Shown here: positions 3,344 to 23,240 of the stretch, piece after piece
Layout of the letters: every line of letters starts with the position of its first letter
How positions within the stretch are numbered: the stretch's first letter is position 1
IMG/VR virus record: IMGVR_UViG_3300042691_002404
Location: 1 to 23,240 of that record
Direction: 5' to 3' (one strand)
DNA length: 23,240 bases
Origin: a virus
Notes under the pieces: model-generated
Databases searched by the model: none
Seen by the model: the letters and a program-made list of their open reading frames with translations, nothing else
What the model was told of the DNA's origin: nothing
Translations under genes and position numbers: made by a program

Positions 3344-3363
3344 TTTTAAAAGCGTTATATTTG
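3336..3363 (+). promoter_or_regulatory. Promoter of the structured RNA / initiator gene
   Basis: TTG (3336-3338) and a perfect -7 box TATATTTG (3356-3363) are 17 bases apart. The element is nearly the same, over 28 bases, as the one at 6869-6896: both begin TTGGATAATT, contain TTAAAAG, and end TTATATTTG. Transcription would start near 3369-3371, exactly at the base of the first stem of the RNA described below. Confidence 0.75.
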
Positions 3364-3370
3364 TTCATCG

Positions 3371-3457
3371 AGTAATTTTTGAGGTGAGAGGCAAAAATTA
3401 TTCCATAGGTTAACTAAACCTAACCCCGGCAGTCTCTCACCTGTTGGGGTTTTTTAT
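3371..3457 (+). ncRNA. Structured RNA with two mutually complementary loops
   Basis: The segment folds into three hairpins. Hairpin 1 pairs 3371-3381 with 3392-3402 (11 pairs, one G-U) around a 10-base loop AGGTGAGAGG. Hairpin 2 pairs 3406-3411 (TAGGTT) with 3417-3422 (AACCTA). Hairpin 3 pairs AACCCC (3422-3427) with GGGGTT (3446-3451) and is followed by a T-run, as in an intrinsic terminator. Its 18-base loop contains CTCTCACCT (3434-3442), the exact complement of AGGTGAGAG (3382-3390) in loop 1, so a 9-10 bp kissing-loop or pseudoknot is possible. The promoter puts the transcript start at the foot of hairpin 1, so an RNA of about 87 bases with its own promoter and terminator is predicted. 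It may be a free small RNA or the attenuating leader of the initiator gene starting at 3463. I know of no named RNA family that it matches. Confidence 0.65.
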
Positions 3458-3462: not shown

Positions 3463-4224
3463 ATGAAAAAAGAAGCGTATTACTTTTCGCACGACGCGAA
3501 CGCCAAAGACGACCCGAAAATACTTCGGCTAAGAATGGAATTAGGCTGGGAAGGTTACGGTCTTTTTTGGGCCTTAATTGAACTGCTAAGAAATGAAAGC
3601 GACCATAGGATGCGAACGCATTGCAAAAGCATTGCATTCGCATTGCAAACGCAAGAAGAAACGATTAAAAAGATTATTAACGACTTTGATTTATTCGTAA
3701 TTGAGGAAGAATATTTTTGGAGCGAAAGCCTTTTAAAACGTATGGAATTGAAAGAGGAACGCTCAGAAAAGGCCCGAGAATCGGCCAAAAAACGCTGGAA
3801 TAAGGATATTGATGCGAACGCAATGCGAACGCATAGCGAACGCAATGCGGATGCAATGCAATTAAAGGAAAGGAAAGGAAAAGAAATAAAAGAAATTAAA
3901 GAAAAAGAAAGTAAAATAAATGAGGATTCACATAATGCAATTTTTCGAGAATTATGGAATAATAGGATTTGGTTGGAAGGTTTAGCAATGACTTGGAAGG
4001 CCGATTTAAAAGAAGTTCAAAACCATTTAAATACCTTTAGGCAAGAATGTATTTTAAAATCCGATTACAAGGAAAACGAGAAACTTGCCAAGGAGCATTT
4101 TTTTAACTGGGTAAAACGAGGCAATCCAATACCTAAACAAGAAAGCAGTAAAGAAAATATTTTTGATAAAATTTACCGCGATATGATGAAAGAAAAAGAG
4201 CAACTAAAACAAAGCGAACAATGA
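3463..4224 (+). CDS. Replication initiator (Lin1244/Lin1753-like, DUF4373, DnaD-like)
   Basis: The N-terminus, AYYFSHDANAKDDPKILRLR then MELGWEGYGLFWALIELLRN, is the signature of the Lin1244/Lin1753-like N-terminal domain (DUF4373) found in phage DnaD-type replication proteins; it is a winged-helix domain (about residues 1-90). A hydrophilic linker follows (SAKKRWNKDIDANAMRTHSE, then Lys/Glu-rich), and then a C-terminal domain with AKEHFFNWVKRGNPIP (about 210-225), usual in the same group. The expected role is origin binding and recruitment of the host helicase through a loader. The gene carries two arrays of 11-bp DNA repeats and an AT-rich purine tract, a probable origin. The gene has no Shine-Dalgarno sequence and starts 3 bases after a terminator-like T-run, so it is probably regulated by the RNA before it. 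The next gene overlaps by 4 bases. Confidence 0.85.
   Translation: MKKEAYYFSHDANAKDDPKILRLRMELGWEGYGLFWALIELLRNESDHRMRTHCKSIAFALQTQEETIKKIINDFDLFVIEEEYFWSESLLKRMELKEERSEKARESAKKRWNKDIDANAMRTHSERNADAMQLKERKGKEIKEIKEKESKINEDSHNAIFRELWNNRIWLEGLAMTWKADLKEVQNHLNTFRQECILKSDYKENEKLAKEHFFNWVKRGNPIPKQESSKENIFDKIYRDMMKEKEQLKQSEQ
3609..3652 (+). repeat. Iteron array 1: four 11-bp direct repeats
   Basis: Four consecutive 11-base units read GATGCGAACGC, ATTGCAAAAGC, ATTGCATTCGC and ATTGCAAACGC (3609, 3620, 3631, 3642). They share the pattern nWTGCnnnnGC, and GCATTGCA recurs three times at exactly 11-base spacing. Eleven is not a multiple of three, so the repetition is in the DNA and not in the protein (RMRTHCKSIAFALQTQ). 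One helical turn per unit fits initiator binding on one face of the helix. Confidence 0.75.
3811..3865 (+). repeat. Iteron array 2: four 11-bp direct repeats plus a degenerate fifth
   Basis: Units GATGCGAACGC (3811), AATGCGAACGC (3822), ATAGCGAACGC (3833) and AATGCGGATGC (3844), then a decayed AATGCAATTAA (3855). The first unit is identical to the first unit of array 1, and the consensus AWTGCRAACGC is shared, in the same orientation, 158 bases downstream. An A/G-rich, AT-rich tract (about 3864-3924) follows directly, as in the lambda origin inside gene O, where iterons are followed by a strand-asymmetric AT-rich unwinding region. Confidence 0.78.
3864..3924 (+). other. AT-rich purine tract, candidate DNA unwinding element
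   Basis: About 60 bases consist almost only of A and G on the + strand, with scattered T and no C, immediately after iteron array 2. It encodes a Lys/Glu-rich linker (KERKGKEIKEIKEKES), so it could simply reflect a charged linker. The position next to the iterons and the strand asymmetry resemble the region opened by the initiator in lambdoid origins. The role is inferred. Confidence 0.5.
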
Positions 4225-4850
4225 AAGCAATAATAGTAAAACACCTAAAAAAGATGGAGTTTGTTTGTGGTCTAAAGCAATTTAAGGAATACAAAGAGCA
4301 AGACGCGACCGAGTTAATTAACTGCCTAAATGATCTATTTAAAAAATTTGGCTGGATGACCGAGGAAAGAGTAGACTACATTTTACAGGCTGGAATGCGG
4401 GGCCAGTACGGCGACTTTTACCACGTTAACGAAAAGACGGTTAACGGCTGGATTAACCAGTATTACCAGCATCACCAAAGCCAAATCGTTATGGAAATCC
4501 AAAACCTCCACAACAAAGACCGAGAACAATCCCCAGAGGAAATTGCGCACTGGAATGAAATCGGAAAGCAGACGTTTAAAGACAACTACCAGCACGCAAA
4601 AGAAACTGGGACTTGCAGACACTTAGCAGAGTGGGGAGTTTATTGGTTTAACCGATTCCAAGAAAAAGGCATTTTAAAACCTTGGTTGTTTAACGTTGAG
4701 GAAATCGAGCAAGACGTTCGCAAAGAATTGCGGTTAACTAGCAGATACGTTGAAGAGTCAACAGTTGGCGCCAAAACAAAAAATAAGATTTGGAAATTGT
4801 TTATTTTGGATTCGATTAAAGAGAATAAAAAACTCGACGAAATTATATGA
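4221..4850 (+). CDS. Hypothetical replication-associated protein (209 aa)
   Basis: I do not recognise a named family. The protein is 209 residues, mostly helical and charged, with many Gln, Glu, His and aromatic residues (AGMRGQYGDFYHVNEKTVNG then WINQYYQHHQSQIVMEIQNL). No Walker motif is visible, so it is not an AAA+ helicase loader of the DnaC type. It overlaps the initiator gene by 4 bases and the methyltransferase gene by 4 bases (ATGA). A gene in this position often encodes a second replisome-organising or helicase-loading protein; I infer a link with replication from position alone. Confidence 0.65.
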   Translation: MKAIIVKHLKKMEFVCGLKQFKEYKEQDATELINCLNDLFKKFGWMTEERVDYILQAGMRGQYGDFYHVNEKTVNGWINQYYQHHQSQIVMEIQNLHNKDREQSPEEIAHWNEIGKQTFKDNYQHAKETGTCRHLAEWGVYWFNRFQEKGILKPWLFNVEEIEQDVRKELRLTSRYVEESTVGAKTKNKIWKLFILDSIKENKKLDEII

Positions 4851-6055
4851 GGCACGGCTCTCTTTTTTCTGGTATTGGCGGCTTTGACCTAGCCTCTGAG
4901 TGGATGGGTTGGGAAAACGTTTTCCATTGCGAATGGAACGAATTTGGACAGAAAGTATTAAAACATTATTGGCCTAAAGCAATTACATACAATGACATTA
5001 CCAAAACAGACTTCACTATTCACAGAGGATCAATCGACATTATTACAGGAGGATTCCCTTGCCAACCCTACTCAATGGCTGGAAAACGACTCGGAAAAGA
5101 AGACGAGCGCCATCTTTGGCCAGAAATGCGTCGAGCAATTCGAGAAATTCGACCGACCTGGGTCGTGGGCGAAAACGTTTTCGGCCTTGTTAATTGGAAT
5201 GGAGGGATGGTCTTCGAAGAGGTGCAGGCTGATTTGGAGGCTGAAGGGTACGAAGTACAAGCGTTTGTTCTTCCTGCTGCAAGCGTCAACGCGCCACACA
5301 AAAGGGAACGAATCTGGATTGTTGCTCACTCCAAATCTTGTACAGATAGCGGAAACTCCAGAGAAGTATCAAGAGAGGCAAAAGAAGAGGACAGAGAATG
5401 GACTGAATCAAGCACCTCATCCAAACAACAAATACAACTGCCTACTGAGCCAAGTACTTTATTCGGGAATGTTACCAACTCCAACTGCAGTACAGAGAGA
5501 CCATCCAGAGAGAGTGGAGGAATTAAAGAAAACTGGAGCAGAAACAATTCACAGTCGGAAAAATGGAGAATTAAGGCCGAACTCGATAATAGATTATATG
5601 AATTTTCACAATATGCTTCCGACTCCGAACTCAAGGGATTACAAAGATGCTCAGAGTCCAGAGAAATACGAAGCGAGAAAGGAGAAATGGGCGGAAAAAG
5701 GAATAAACTTGCAACTCAGTTTACCTCAATATCTAACGAATCAAATTTTGCCCACTCCAACAACTCACGACTCAAAGCATTCTCAATTCAAAAGCCCGAG
5801 TTGGCAGAGGAGAATAGATCAACATCACCTAGCGGAAACAGTTCTAGATTCATTTGTGGAGGATTACGATGGGAAACCTTCCCAATTAGCGCCCCAATTT
5901 GTGATGGAAATGATGGGATTTCCGCCAGATTGGACGGCATTACCTTTTCTAAATGGCGAAACGAATCAATCAAAGCCGGAGGAAACGCAATCGTCCCTCA
6001 AGTAGTGCATCAAATATTTAAAGCAATCGAACAATACAACAACTTAAACAAATAA
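4847..6055 (+). CDS. DNA (cytosine-5-)-methyltransferase
   Basis: This is a C5-cytosine methyltransferase that transfers a methyl group from SAM to cytosine in a target DNA site. Motif I is at residues 7-13 (FSGIGGF), the catalytic PCQ of motif IV at 71-73 (Cys72), ENV of motif VI at 109-111, motif VIII around 151-159 (HKRERIWIV), and motif X near 370-388 (GNAIVPQ at 379-385). The C-terminal stretch before it (GGLRWETFPISAP and GNDGISARLDG) is typical of this enzyme group. Residues about 165-340 are a Ser/Asn/Glu-rich region with four HSx/NSx/DSx-type segments, unusually low in hydrophobic residues. That region is also read in a second frame (4992-6005). No restriction enzyme gene is adjacent, so it is a solitary methylase, probably protecting phage DNA from host restriction. 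Confidence 0.92.
   Translation: MRHGSLFSGIGGFDLASEWMGWENVFHCEWNEFGQKVLKHYWPKAITYNDITKTDFTIHRGSIDIITGGFPCQPYSMAGKRLGKEDERHLWPEMRRAIREIRPTWVVGENVFGLVNWNGGMVFEEVQADLEAEGYEVQAFVLPAASVNAPHKRERIWIVAHSKSCTDSGNSREVSREAKEEDREWTESSTSSKQQIQLPTEPSTLFGNVTNSNCSTERPSRESGGIKENWSRNNSQSEKWRIKAELDNRLYEFSQYASDSELKGLQRCSESREIRSEKGEMGGKRNKLATQFTSISNESNFAHSNNSRLKAFSIQKPELAEENRSTSPSGNSSRFICGGLRWETFPISAPICDGNDGISARLDGITFSKWRNESIKAGGNAIVPQVVHQIFKAIEQYNNLNK
4992..6005 (+). CDS. Overlapping frame inside the methyltransferase gene (337 aa)
   Basis: An uninterrupted 337-residue frame lies wholly inside the cytosine methyltransferase gene, shifted by +1. It looks like a real protein: an N-terminus with MTLPKQTSLFTEDQSTLLQE, a conserved-looking WAKTFSALLIGMEGWSSKRC block followed by LIWRLKGTKYKRL (about 58-91), four LTP/LPTPT-type segments (for example MLPTPTAVQRDHPE and MLPTPNSRDYKDAQ), and a C-terminal LAPQFVMEMMGFPPDWTALPF (about 299-319). 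From memory, proteins with this set of motifs are widespread in Bacteroides and phage genomes, often annotated loosely as methyltransferase, and lie with a cytosine methylase in the same arrangement. It has no methylase motif of its own. The ATG at 4992 is assumed. The function is unknown; it may be a partner of the enzyme. Confidence 0.72.
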   Translation: MTLPKQTSLFTEDQSTLLQEDSLANPTQWLENDSEKKTSAIFGQKCVEQFEKFDRPGSWAKTFSALLIGMEGWSSKRCRLIWRLKGTKYKRLFFLLQASTRHTKGNESGLLLTPNLVQIAETPEKYQERQKKRTENGLNQAPHPNNKYNCLLSQVLYSGMLPTPTAVQRDHPERVEELKKTGAETIHSRKNGELRPNSIIDYMNFHNMLPTPNSRDYKDAQSPEKYEARKEKWAEKGINLQLSLPQYLTNQILPTPTTHDSKHSQFKSPSWQRRIDQHHLAETVLDSFVEDYDGKPSQLAPQFVMEMMGFPPDWTALPFLNGETNQSKPEETQSSLK

Positions 6056-14387: not shown

Positions 14388-15374
14388 ATGAATGTAGTTT
14401 TTTTTGTACACGCGTGGGCGGGAACGCATAACTCGGGCGCCGAGTGGACCGTTCAGCACTACGCCAAATTTTTGCATCAAAAGGGATGCAGCATCGAGGT
14501 AATTTTACCAGAAAACCAGATTTATCCAGACGGCGAAAAGTTTGCGTTTATAAAATTTATAACCGGCTATTATTCCAATGAGTTTTTTTTAGCGCTAAGT
14601 AATGCCGACGTTGTCTTTACCCATTTAGATAATACAGGCGTTGCAATTAATTGGGCAAGGCATTTTAAAAAGCATTTGATTTTCCTTAGCCACAACGACC
14701 ACGATTACAGAATTGTGAGAGCAAGGCAAGCCAATATTTCGGTTGTTTATAACAACAAAGCAAACGAGAAAAACGTAGGCGGTGGTCCTTATCCTAACCC
14801 GTCAATTGTTTGCAAACCTCCGATTTTCCCAGACGACGTAAAATATAACCGCAAGCACGGGCAGAACGTTACGCTTATTAATTGCAACGAAAACAAAGGA
14901 GGCAAAATACTGGTGGAACTTGCCAAGCGATTGCCTAAAATTAAATTTCTTGGTGTGCTAGGTAGTTACGGCGAGCAGATAATTGACGACACTTATAAAA
15001 ATTTAAAGTACGTTCCGCAAACGCCTGACATTCATTTGATTTATGGCAAGTCTAACATTGTTTTAATGCCAAGCGATTACGAGAGTTACGGACGTGTAGC
15101 GTTAGAGGCGGCTATTAATCGGCTGCCAGTTATTTGCACGCCAACAGACGGATTAAAAGAATGCCTTGGCGCCGCTGGTCTTTACTTTGACCGCGAAGAC
15201 ATTGACGGAATGGCTAAGAAAATCGAGGAATTAATGACAGACGAAATTCTTTACGACTTTCACCAAAACATTATGCGCAACTTGGCAGACGAACGGCTAA
15301 AATACCAAGACCAAGAATTGGAAGCATTTTATACCTTTATCGTTGACAAAGCAAAACGAGATTATAATGAGTGA
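14388..15374 (+). CDS. GT4 family glycosyltransferase
   Basis: This is a GT-B fold glycosyltransferase of the GT4 kind. The N-terminal domain reads MNVVFFVHAWAGTHNSGAEW, with the glycine-rich HNSGAEWTVQHYAKFLHQKG (about 14-33) near the donor site, and the C-terminal domain has SDYESYGRVALEAAINRLPVI, with the E(x7)E motif at Glu232 and Glu240 that contacts the nucleotide sugar. At 328 residues it is slightly short for the family. No membrane segment is present. It lies between the capsid gene terminator and the head-tail connector, 100 bases after the capsid stop, with the connector gene overlapping by 8 bases. With the GT25-like gene, it is the second glycosyltransferase among virion genes. 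The acceptor, virion or host, is unknown. Confidence 0.84.
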   Translation: MNVVFFVHAWAGTHNSGAEWTVQHYAKFLHQKGCSIEVILPENQIYPDGEKFAFIKFITGYYSNEFFLALSNADVVFTHLDNTGVAINWARHFKKHLIFLSHNDHDYRIVRARQANISVVYNNKANEKNVGGGPYPNPSIVCKPPIFPDDVKYNRKHGQNVTLINCNENKGGKILVELAKRLPKIKFLGVLGSYGEQIIDDTYKNLKYVPQTPDIHLIYGKSNIVLMPSDYESYGRVALEAAINRLPVICTPTDGLKECLGAAGLYFDREDIDGMAKKIEELMTDEILYDFHQNIMRNLADERLKYQDQELEAFYTFIVDKAKRDYNE

Positions 15375-20959: not shown

Positions 20960-23240
20960 ATGGCATACGGTCTAAAATATACAATACCTTTTAAAGATAT
21001 TGACGACTTTTCCAACGTTGTCGAAATATACCAAGACGGCTTTGTTGGCACGTCAACGGAATTAATTGCAACAGACGTACCAGCGACGCACACATACGAG
21101 CGCGAGGATAACGAAGACATTACGTCCAGCATTATGTCGGCCACGCTTACGGTTTCTTTTTATTCGACTGACGTTACCGATTTTAGAAATTTCTTTAGTT
21201 ACTCAGACCGCGAGTTTTTGGTTATTCACAAATTCCAAGGCGACGTTGTATTTAAAGGCTACTTGTTAAACGACATAACTGGCGAGCCATTCCAAGACCC
21301 GCCTTACCCGGTTGTCGTTACTGCGACCGACGGCTTGGCTCAATTAAAGGAAATTACTTTAACAGGCCCAAGCGTAGACACGGATTTAGGCGAGTTAATC
21401 TTTGACCAACTTAATACTCTAGACCTCGAGTTAGATTTTGAGATTTGTAACGACCTTTATGAGGGCCTTGTAATGGACAACACCAAGTCCATTTTTGCGC
21501 AAACTGTTGGCGAGAATTTGTTAGTCCAAGAGTTTACCTTTGACGAATTAGGTATTAACGCTTTCGATTTCTTGCTGGAGATTTGCAAAACAATGGGCTG
21601 GGTTTTGTTTCAAAGAAACGGCCGCTGGATTATTCAGCGTGCAATATCTAGAAACATTGACACGACAACGATTTACGTTCACGACTGGAATACCTACGCA
21701 GTAAAGGAAAGTTACCAAAATAACGCGGTCGATTCCGCTGAAACTTGGTATTTAAAAAGTATTACGGCTAATCCTTACAGAGGCATAGCATACGGCAACG
21801 GCAAATTTGTAGCCGTATCAAACGGCTCGTTTAGCATTATGCATTCAAACGACGGCGTAACGTGGACAAGCGCAACCGTTGGCTCCTTTGGTTTATCGGA
21901 CGTAATTTACGCAAACGGCAAATTTGTAGCGGTTGGAGGTGAGTTATCCGGAAGCACGTTAATAACAAATATTCAGGTTTCAACCGATGGCGTAACCTGG
22001 ACAAGGTATAATCCAAGTTTTCAGATACAATTAAAGGCCATAACCTACGGCAACGGCTTGTTTGTTGCAGTTGCTAATAGCGGCGCGGTGAATCGTTTGG
22101 CAACGTCGCCAGACGGCATAAACTGGACACAACGAACGCCAGCGGCAAACAATGATTGGCAATCTGTTGCGTATGGCAACGGCAAATTTGTTGCTATTTC
22201 TAGCAATGGAACCAACCGCACAATGTATTCGACCGATGGCATTAACTGGACAGGCATAGCGGTAACACCAAACTCCAACAGTATTATTTTTGCAGACGGG
22301 AAATTTACAACTGGCAAGAATTACTCAACTGACGGCATAACGTGGACAAATTCAACGCTGGAATTTTCGCCTTTTGGCATTGCTTACGGCAATGGCTTAT
22401 TTGTCGCCGTTGGTCAATCTTTAAGCAATAGAATAGCAATTAGCACGGACGGGATAACGTGGCAACTTGTTGCGGCGCCAGCATTGACAACGTGGACTTG
22501 CGTAGAGTATGGCGAGAGTAAATTTGTGGCTTTGGCCGACGATGGCGCTAATCGAATAATGGTTAGTTATTCCAATGAAGGCAACACGCCAGAAGTTGTT
22601 GGAGATCAAAACGGAGTAAATACAAAATGGATTCCGGTAAACGCTGACCAGTTGCTGCAATATCAAAGACCTATTAAAAAACTGACGTTAACGCAAGGCG
22701 ATTTGGGCCAGTCAATTGTTACCAATGGCGAATCGTTTAACGAGGATTCTTGGTTTTTGGAAGGGCCATATAAGCCTTACGACTGGACAATTACGCCAGA
22801 CGAAGACACGCCTATAATTCAAATATTTCCTAACAATATTCCGCAAGCAACTGGTTACGACAACGAGCAAGGTGTTAGTTGGGACATTAGATTTGTGCCA
22901 AACGGTGAGGAAACTGACCAGCCAATTACCTCTAAACCTGTTTTCCTGGACTTTGCTGGCTTGTCTTTGGATTTAGAAGTTGATATTGATTACTTGACTG
23001 CGGCTAGCGCTATGGCTATAGCAGTAAAGCACGTCGACTCAGGAGGAACTGACCGCTATTTAGGTACTACTTTAGTGGGTTCGTTTAACCTTTTGCAATG
23101 GGATGAGACCTATAATACTTTCGTCTACTATTCAACTAAAGACAACGATAAACGAAAGTTTAAATTAACTTCTTTTGTATTGCCAACGGCTGGCTTTTTG
23201 TCTGTTGAGTTAAAGTACTTTGGGCCAACTGGTAGCGCTA
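20960..23240 (+). CDS. Distal tail/receptor-binding protein with inserted beta-propeller (partial)
   Basis: The frame starts at the ATG at 20960, 3 bases after the tape measure stop, and stays open to the window edge (760 complete codons), so the gene is cut off. Its start (MAYGLKYTIPFKDIDDFSNV) and the block VVFKGYLLNDITGEPFQDPP, then YPVVVTATDGLAQLKEI, resemble tail-tip baseplate proteins of Bacteroidota phages that follow the tape measure. About residues 272-545 consist of seven imperfect repeats of the type YGNGKFVAV followed by STDGITWT, probably a seven-bladed beta-propeller, inserted into the scaffold. The scaffold resumes at about 555 with TKWIPVNADQLLQYQRP. The propeller is likely the part that contacts host glycans. 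Exact family assignment of the scaffold is uncertain. Confidence 0.82.
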   Translation, partial: MAYGLKYTIPFKDIDDFSNVVEIYQDGFVGTSTELIATDVPATHTYEREDNEDITSSIMSATLTVSFYSTDVTDFRNFFSYSDREFLVIHKFQGDVVFKGYLLNDITGEPFQDPPYPVVVTATDGLAQLKEITLTGPSVDTDLGELIFDQLNTLDLELDFEICNDLYEGLVMDNTKSIFAQTVGENLLVQEFTFDELGINAFDFLLEICKTMGWVLFQRNGRWIIQRAISRNIDTTTIYVHDWNTYAVKESYQNNAVDSAETWYLKSITANPYRGIAYGNGKFVAVSNGSFSIMHSNDGVTWTSATVGSFGLSDVIYANGKFVAVGGELSGSTLITNIQVSTDGVTWTRYNPSFQIQLKAITYGNGLFVAVANSGAVNRLATSPDGINWTQRTPAANNDWQSVAYGNGKFVAISSNGTNRTMYSTDGINWTGIAVTPNSNSIIFADGKFTTGKNYSTDGITWTNSTLEFSPFGIAYGNGLFVAVGQSLSNRIAISTDGITWQLVAAPALTTWTCVEYGESKFVALADDGANRIMVSYSNEGNTPEVVGDQNGVNTKWIPVNADQLLQYQRPIKKLTLTQGDLGQSIVTNGESFNEDSWFLEGPYKPYDWTITPDEDTPIIQIFPNNIPQATGYDNEQGVSWDIRFVPNGEETDQPITSKPVFLDFAGLSLDLEVDIDYLTAASAMAIAVKHVDSGGTDRYLGTTLVGSFNLLQWDETYNTFVYYSTKDNDKRKFKLTSFVLPTAGFLSVELKYFGPTGSA
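21770..22595 (+). repeat. Seven imperfect repeats encoding a predicted beta-propeller
   Basis: About 38-residue repeats, each with a G(N/D)GxFVAV-type strand and an Asp-box-like S-x-D-G-x-T/N-W turn: SNDGVTWT, STDGVTWT, SPDGINWT, STDGINWT, STDGITWT and STDGITWQ, and a last degenerate unit ending YSNEG. At the DNA level the units share stretches such as GGCAACGGCAAATTTGT and GACGGCATAACGTGGACA-like variants, so they arose by duplication. Confidence 0.78.

Follow-up and report, generated by a model that had tools for sequence, protein, structure and literature searches.

A replication origin most likely lies within a phage initiator gene of the Lin1244_N/DUF7833 type

Repeated DNA inside a coding gene may serve either the protein or the DNA, and the locus described here raises this question for a gene predicted to start phage replication: does it also contain the site at which its product acts? 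The gene lies in a 23,240-base virus record (IMG/VR IMGVR_UViG_3300042691_002404), analyzed at its full length and referred to here as the window. The window carries phage genes (Erf, Gp157, RusA, terminase, portal, and prohead protease); a glycosyltransferase-like gene (phrog_2170; 14388-15374, plus strand) stands among its structural genes. The open reading frame (ORF) at 3463-4224 (plus strand) encodes a 253-residue protein with an N-terminal winged helix (Lin1244_N), a disordered linker, and a C-terminal DUF7833 domain. It matches Lin1244_N (PF14297; E = 1.1e-13, 52.1 bits against a curated Pfam cutoff of 25), DUF7833 (PF25200; E = 1.1e-5 in Pfam), and, in PHROGs, phrog_2562, "replication initiation protein" (E = 1.1e-23), and 63 of 63 aligned initiator sequences match both PF14297 and phrog_2562. 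By Pfam and PHROG membership, the protein is a Lin1244_N/DUF7833 phage initiator. A PHROG named replisome organizer is matched by 8 of the 63 sequences, and a few relatives match "O-like" PHROGs, the latter matches not being assigned to a particular domain.

The AlphaFold2 model of the initiator, built from 63 sequences, has a mean pLDDT of 81. It contains a winged helix (helices at residues 18 to 44, 54 to 61, and 65 to 74, a β wing at 79 to 86, and a helix at 88 to 113), followed by a low-confidence stretch at residues 132 to 151 and then a small helical domain. A sequence search of solved structures gave no credible relative, and Foldseek gave no match to the model at E ≤ 0.001. The matches that VIA-align gave for the model are winged helices of a generic kind, the RepA_N initiators standing in the tied group; DnaD is not among the fold matches listed, an absence that carries no weight.

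The first-pass annotation of this DNA had pointed to eight direct repeat units within the gene, in two groups of four (3609-3652 and 3811-3854) with exactly 11-bp spacing and identical first units, and every one of these coordinates and identities proved correct. Array 1 (3609-3652, plus strand) consists of GATGCGAACGC (3609-3619), ATTGCAAAAGC (3620-3630), ATTGCATTCGC (3631-3641), and ATTGCAAACGC (3642-3652). Array 2 (3811-3859, plus strand) consists of GATGCGAACGC (3811-3821), AATGCGAACGC (3822-3832), ATAGCGAACGC (3833-3843), and AATGCGGATGC (3844-3854), followed by a partial unit, AATGC (3855-3859), which is the ninth of the set. The constant part of the repeats is GCAWWGC, followed by a variable 4-bp spacer; thus, the consensus AWTGCRAACGC represents the form that a looser motif takes in this phage. 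When we searched the whole window for GCAWWGC-N4-GCAWWGC with zero or one mismatch, matches fell only inside the two arrays, and the five two-mismatch matches elsewhere are close to chance (shuffle mean, 2.8). Near the 5' end of the gene, GACGCGAACGCC (3493-3504) resembles a degenerate single iteron; an exact GCAWWGC occurs within the first 105 nt in 16 of 83 homologues.

The arrays occupy different parts of the code. Array 1 encodes residues 50 to 63, which form strand β1, helix α2, and the turn before α3 of the predicted winged helix; α2 is the first helix of the helix-turn-helix (helices 54 to 61 and 65 to 74 in the model). Array 2 encodes residues 117 to 133 of the disordered linker, and the tract that array 2 flanks encodes the low-confidence stretch after it. 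This strand-asymmetric, AT-rich purine tract had likewise been noticed in the first-pass annotation, and we place it at 3860-3926 (plus strand), directly adjoining array 2. It is 88% purine and 79% A+T, has a 5-nt period, and holds the most purine-rich 60-nt segment of the 23 kb (54 of 60). Its low duplex stability ranks within the top 0.4% of the window, in which four or five other spots are less stable. The tract is probably a DNA unwinding element.

Such features could also belong to a regulatory site. The arrays might be operators at which the initiator or a phage regulator, bound inside the gene, blocks transcription or otherwise controls its own expression, with the origin located elsewhere. 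Initiators often regulate their own genes, array 1 lies near the 5' part of this one, and a leader that looks regulated (described below) already precedes it. However, operators would leave the conserved A-rich purine tract beside array 2 unexplained, and the motif has no copies near any promoter in the window. We therefore consider it unlikely that the arrays are operators in place of an origin, while noting that operator and origin roles can coexist.

We found that the region encoding the winged helix and the region encoding the linker of the same gene have, in total, 438 8-mers in common, versus 171 in synonymous shuffles, and that this sharing is significant (P ≤ 0.05) in 31 of 83 genes. 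Own pairs of array 1 and array 2 exceed all 2,000 permuted pairings, a comparison that includes genes with other words. Several lineages carry another word at both places (CAACAAGTGTTGAACAA in L153, GAACACTTGTTGA in L160, ATAACACTGTTA in L124 and L127, and TAGGGTGGCTAT in L139), and within the close family, L054 and L056 to L058 changed spacers in both arrays. Concerted change of the word at two distinct positions, with one inside a folded domain, is what would be expected if both were bound by a shared DNA-binding protein, and the encoded initiator is the natural candidate for the protein that reads both arrays. Sorting homologues coarsely by repeat word and recognition-helix residues revealed no clear code. 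The helical phasing of array 1 relative to array 2 gives an R of about 0.43 across 35 genes, a value confounded by shared ancestry. Matching copies of a rarer word (TAGCCACCC/GGGTGGCTA) occur in the winged-helix code and the linker of L139 and L155, a different iteron alphabet within this one family.

The lineage-specific words also bear on whether the arrays might act like a centromere or as a site for a host factor, serving partition, packaging, or DnaA-type initiation. Iterated sites are known to serve partition and packaging as well. However, the arrays lie inside the initiator gene in the homologues seen, their word differs from lineage to lineage, making a single conserved host factor less plausible, and no DnaA box lies near them, the sole strict match in the window being at position 21222. 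A site of this kind is, in our view, very improbable.

To assess whether selection acts on the DNA or on the protein, we compared 50 related genes from IMG/VR and scored synonymous identity, defined as the same codon where the amino acid is the same in a pair of genes. Synonymous identity was 0.92 in array 1, 0.93 in array 2, and 0.91 in the tract, versus 0.57, 0.64, and 0.70 in three other coding regions of the same genes. Amino acid identity was no higher in the arrays (0.85 and 0.83) than around them (0.93, 0.83, and 0.79). High synonymous identity without raised amino acid identity indicates selection on DNA, and we conclude that such selection acts in both arrays and in the tract. The first-pass annotation had read the out-of-frame 11-bp period of the repeats as pointing to selection on DNA, and the contrast in synonymous identity bears this out.

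These measurements leave little room for the idea that the repeats reflect protein selection, in which a low-complexity linker and a conserved helix have codons that repeat by chance. Similar residues are indeed encoded across homologues (ANAMRTH..., KEIKEIKE). Nevertheless, a period of 11 is out of frame, synonymous sites show much stronger conservation in the repeats than elsewhere in the gene, which already contradicts the idea, and the shared word changes together at both sites. Moreover, when synonymous codons were shuffled with the protein and codon usage kept, both arrays were never reproduced (0 of 5,000), neither the score of the second array nor the summed score was reached in 5,000 shuffles, and shuffling codon order gave a like result. 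We find this explanation hardly credible. Equally hard to credit are neutral tandem duplications left by replication slippage in a tolerant linker, a common source of direct tandem repeats in disordered linkers, given that array 1 encodes a folded helix in the AlphaFold2 model, that both arrays persist among homologues of about 35 to 45% protein identity in two phyla, that the cores resist synonymous change (which already contradicts slippage), and that control ORFs are without signal.

How widely is the DNA pattern kept? A search of sequenced genomes added 80 loci from Bacteroidota, Firmicutes, and some other bins, and we assembled a diverse set of 83 homologues thinned for similarity, with 160 other ORFs from the same loci as controls. 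An 11-nt period at P ≤ 0.01 was present in 33 of the 83 homologues versus 3 of the 160 control ORFs; although this is under half of the set, the exact core GCAWWGC is still found in 60 of 83 array-2 regions, compared with 37 of 83 array-1 regions and 3 of 83 3' control regions. Cores are mostly 11 or 22 bp apart, and the diverse homologues that carry them come from both Bacteroidota and Firmicutes. The 5-nt period of the tract recurs in 48 of 83 homologous genes (9 of 160 control ORFs). Enterococcus phage EF62phi and Lactobacillus phage LBR48 carry related repeats (GGATAGCAATGCTATAGC and AATAGCAATGCTATGGCAATGCC, respectively) at the position of array 2, standing before an A-rich tract. Array 1 varies more than array 2, and several relatives (L066, L069, and L071) lack it. 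The repeats thus persist across two phyla with extreme synonymous conservation, the opposite of a protein linker kept while its DNA repeats are lost.

Since relatives from two phyla keep the arrays and the tract at the DNA level, the gene most likely contains its own origin. We consider it very likely that this is the replication origin of the phage, bound by the initiator, with array 2 and the tract as its core and array 1 as an auxiliary site. At the level of sequence, the gene has the features of an iteron-type embedded origin, namely, tandem direct repeats under DNA selection and an adjoining AT-rich tract. GC skew is positive along nearly the whole window with no switch at the arrays and is thus uninformative on the origin.

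In the mechanism that we propose, the N-terminal winged helix of the initiator would bind the 11-bp GCAWWGC-N4 repeats. One unit is approximately one helical turn, so neighboring protomers would share the same DNA face. Once array 2 is filled, the adjoining A-rich purine tract would melt, and the replicative helicase would be loaded there by the C-terminal domain and the product of the next gene, or by host factors. Array 1 lies about 200 bp upstream, in the code for the DNA-binding domain. Because it is less constant and away from the tract, we assign it, with less confidence, an auxiliary or control role, which may involve cooperative binding, looping, or handcuffing and titration; the division of labor between the arrays should be read with the same caution. 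Some relatives have DnaB_2 or Phg_2220_C domains, suggesting that an N-terminal reader and its embedded site are combined with differing C-terminal domains.

The next gene (4221-4850, plus strand; 209 residues) overlaps the 3' end of the initiator gene and has no significant family match in Pfam, PHROGs, or a further search. Related phages have DnaC-like genes at this position, and in EF62phi and a Porphyromonas phage, the annotation of the gene after the initiator is that of a replication protein of DnaC type or a helicase loader. The position of the window ORF suggests that it encodes a helicase loader or another initiation partner. Farther downstream, two long plus-strand ORFs in different frames (4847-6055 and 4992-6005) overlap by 1,014 nt, an apparent case of dual coding, and both match DNA methyltransferase PHROGs (phrog_363, E = 1.6e-73; phrog_1008, E = 3.2e-17).

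Origins embedded in initiator genes are known from phages and plasmids. In phage lambda, the central part of the O gene contains iterons and an AT-rich tract (PMC7466680), and the window resembles it in having four or more direct iterons and such a tract midway through an initiator gene. The first-pass annotation had described the layout as that of the lambda O origin; this holds for the iterons and AT-rich purine tract in the linker code, but the window protein has no match to the lambda O family in Pfam or PHROGs, so "lambda-like" applies to layout only. The systems also differ in that units are 11 bp here and 18 to 19 bp in lambda and in that the window has an extra array upstream. The layout fits SPP1 gene 38 and the rep genes of pSK41-type RepA_N plasmids as well as it fits lambda O. 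In SPP1, oriL consists of direct repeats and an AT-rich unwinding element inside gene 38, which encodes the origin-binding protein (PMC6316719), an arrangement like that of the window; SPP1 differs in that its genome carries another origin, oriR, at a different location, whereas both arrays of the window share one gene.

The pSK41-type RepA_N plasmids have four Rep boxes located centrally in rep, which are bound by the N-terminal domain, while the linker is dispensable (PMC5703833). RepA_N initiators such as those of pSK41 and pTZ2162 resemble the window protein in having an N-terminal winged helix and boxes in the linker code of rep (PMC5703833, PMC7145576, PMC8129170). The RepA_N systems also have semi-palindromic direct repeats, a C-terminal domain that is apparently host specific, and a structured 5' leader that controls initiator expression, features for which the window offers apparent counterparts. 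RepA_N N-terminal domain structures (4pql, 4pt7, and 4pta) align over about 80 residues to model residues 1/4 to 89 with Z scores of 5.4 to 5.9, tied with unrelated winged helices, and RepA_N itself (PF06970) is absent both from the Pfam matches of the window protein and from the 25 of 45 families listed for 62 relatives. In contrast to the RepA_N plasmids, the window has 11-bp units and an additional array where the DNA-binding domain is encoded, the Lin1244 family belongs to Bacteroidota and Firmicutes phages and prophages, and the leader has self-complementary loops where an antisense RNA is known in RepA_N systems. To our knowledge, an array inside the code for the DNA-binding domain is known from none of the lambda, SPP1, and RepA_N models. 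The present module would work like the lambda O, SPP1 gp38, and RepA_N origins, a likeness that concerns layout and does not imply family membership. We found no paper on the origins of Lin1244/DUF4373-type initiators in the open-access literature, and although the arrangement is known from these systems, an embedded origin appears, within the searchable literature, to be undescribed for this family.

For widespread phage and prophage initiators of the Lin1244/DUF4373 type in Bacteroidota and Firmicutes, these data provide a candidate origin that can be tested to the base and on which phage-derived plasmids for Bacteroidota could be built. Since lineages differ in their repeat word, the family offers a natural series for the co-evolution of a winged helix and its DNA site, a case in which some of the site doubles as coding sequence for the domain that reads it.

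Upstream of the initiator gene, three conserved hairpins form a leader (3370-3456, plus strand) between a promoter-like box, TATATTTG (3356-3363, plus strand), and the initiator ATG. We take the box to resemble the TAnnTTTG -7 box of Bacteroidota promoters. It occurs twice in the window versus 1.5 times expected and so is not significant alone; by eye, similar TATATTTG or TATATTCG boxes stand before most related leaders. Hairpin H1 (3370-3403, plus strand; stem 3370-3381/3392-3403) presents the kissing sequence GTGAGAG (3384-3390) in its loop. H2 (3406-3422, plus strand; TAGGTT/AACCTA) is part of the predicted fold of the window leader. H3 (3423-3456, plus strand; stem 3423-3432/3441-3450 plus a T run) is terminator-like and ends just before the initiator ATG, and its loop, CTCTCAC (3434-3440), complements that of H1 over 7 bp.

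This loop-loop complementarity is found in 62 leaders (34 of 34 distinct ones), with five loop types. In the MAFFT alignment, the H1 loops of different types are offset by one column, and pairs were therefore counted with complementary 7-mers as anchors; 3 of 7 loop-loop pairs change on both sides among the 34 distinct leaders, with the anchoring guaranteeing pairing in the counted rows, and a complementary 7-mer pair is present in each of the 62 leaders tested. In the stems, RNAalifold shows 9 of 20 pairs to have changed on both sides. A covariance model finds the leader in distant relatives too, and no Rfam family exceeds its gathering cutoff in the window or nine relatives, the only hits being weak (E ≥ 0.055). 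Mapped onto the initiator tree, loop type changes 17 times against a minimum of 4, and close-neighbor initiators can have different loop types (L056/L057 and L045/L046; also L058). This pattern suggests the exchange of matched loop pairs between close relatives, as would be expected under RNA control of the incompatibility type.

The rep genes of RepA_N plasmids offer the nearest parallel to the leader: their 5' leaders adopt alternative structures controlled by antisense RNA (PMC8129170). By this analogy, we propose, as a proposal only, that the leader may act as an RNA control device; if so, phages would possess an RNA device for copy control. Our literature search on kissing-loop leaders in phages returned nothing relevant, and the leader RNA is apparently new to description. 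Tentatively, and with less than even confidence, we suggest that the parts together form an undescribed replication-control module: a DNA-binding domain partly encoded by its own sites (array 1), a second array and an unwinding tract in the linker code, a word that changes together at both arrays, and, beside a terminator, a new kissing-loop leader RNA whose exchangeable loop types might determine incompatibility or the specificity of superinfection in the manner of plasmid copy-control RNAs.

The leader also occurs away from the initiator gene. In two of the distant relatives, at L071:1160-1255 and L072:873-968, a leader of this kind with loops GAGGGA and TCCCTC precedes not the initiator but a 582-residue ORF, the translation of which, by eye, begins like a DnaG-type primase. 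In L070 and L078 to L080, it stands about 360 bp upstream of the initiator, before a small ORF that by eye has HNH-like residues.
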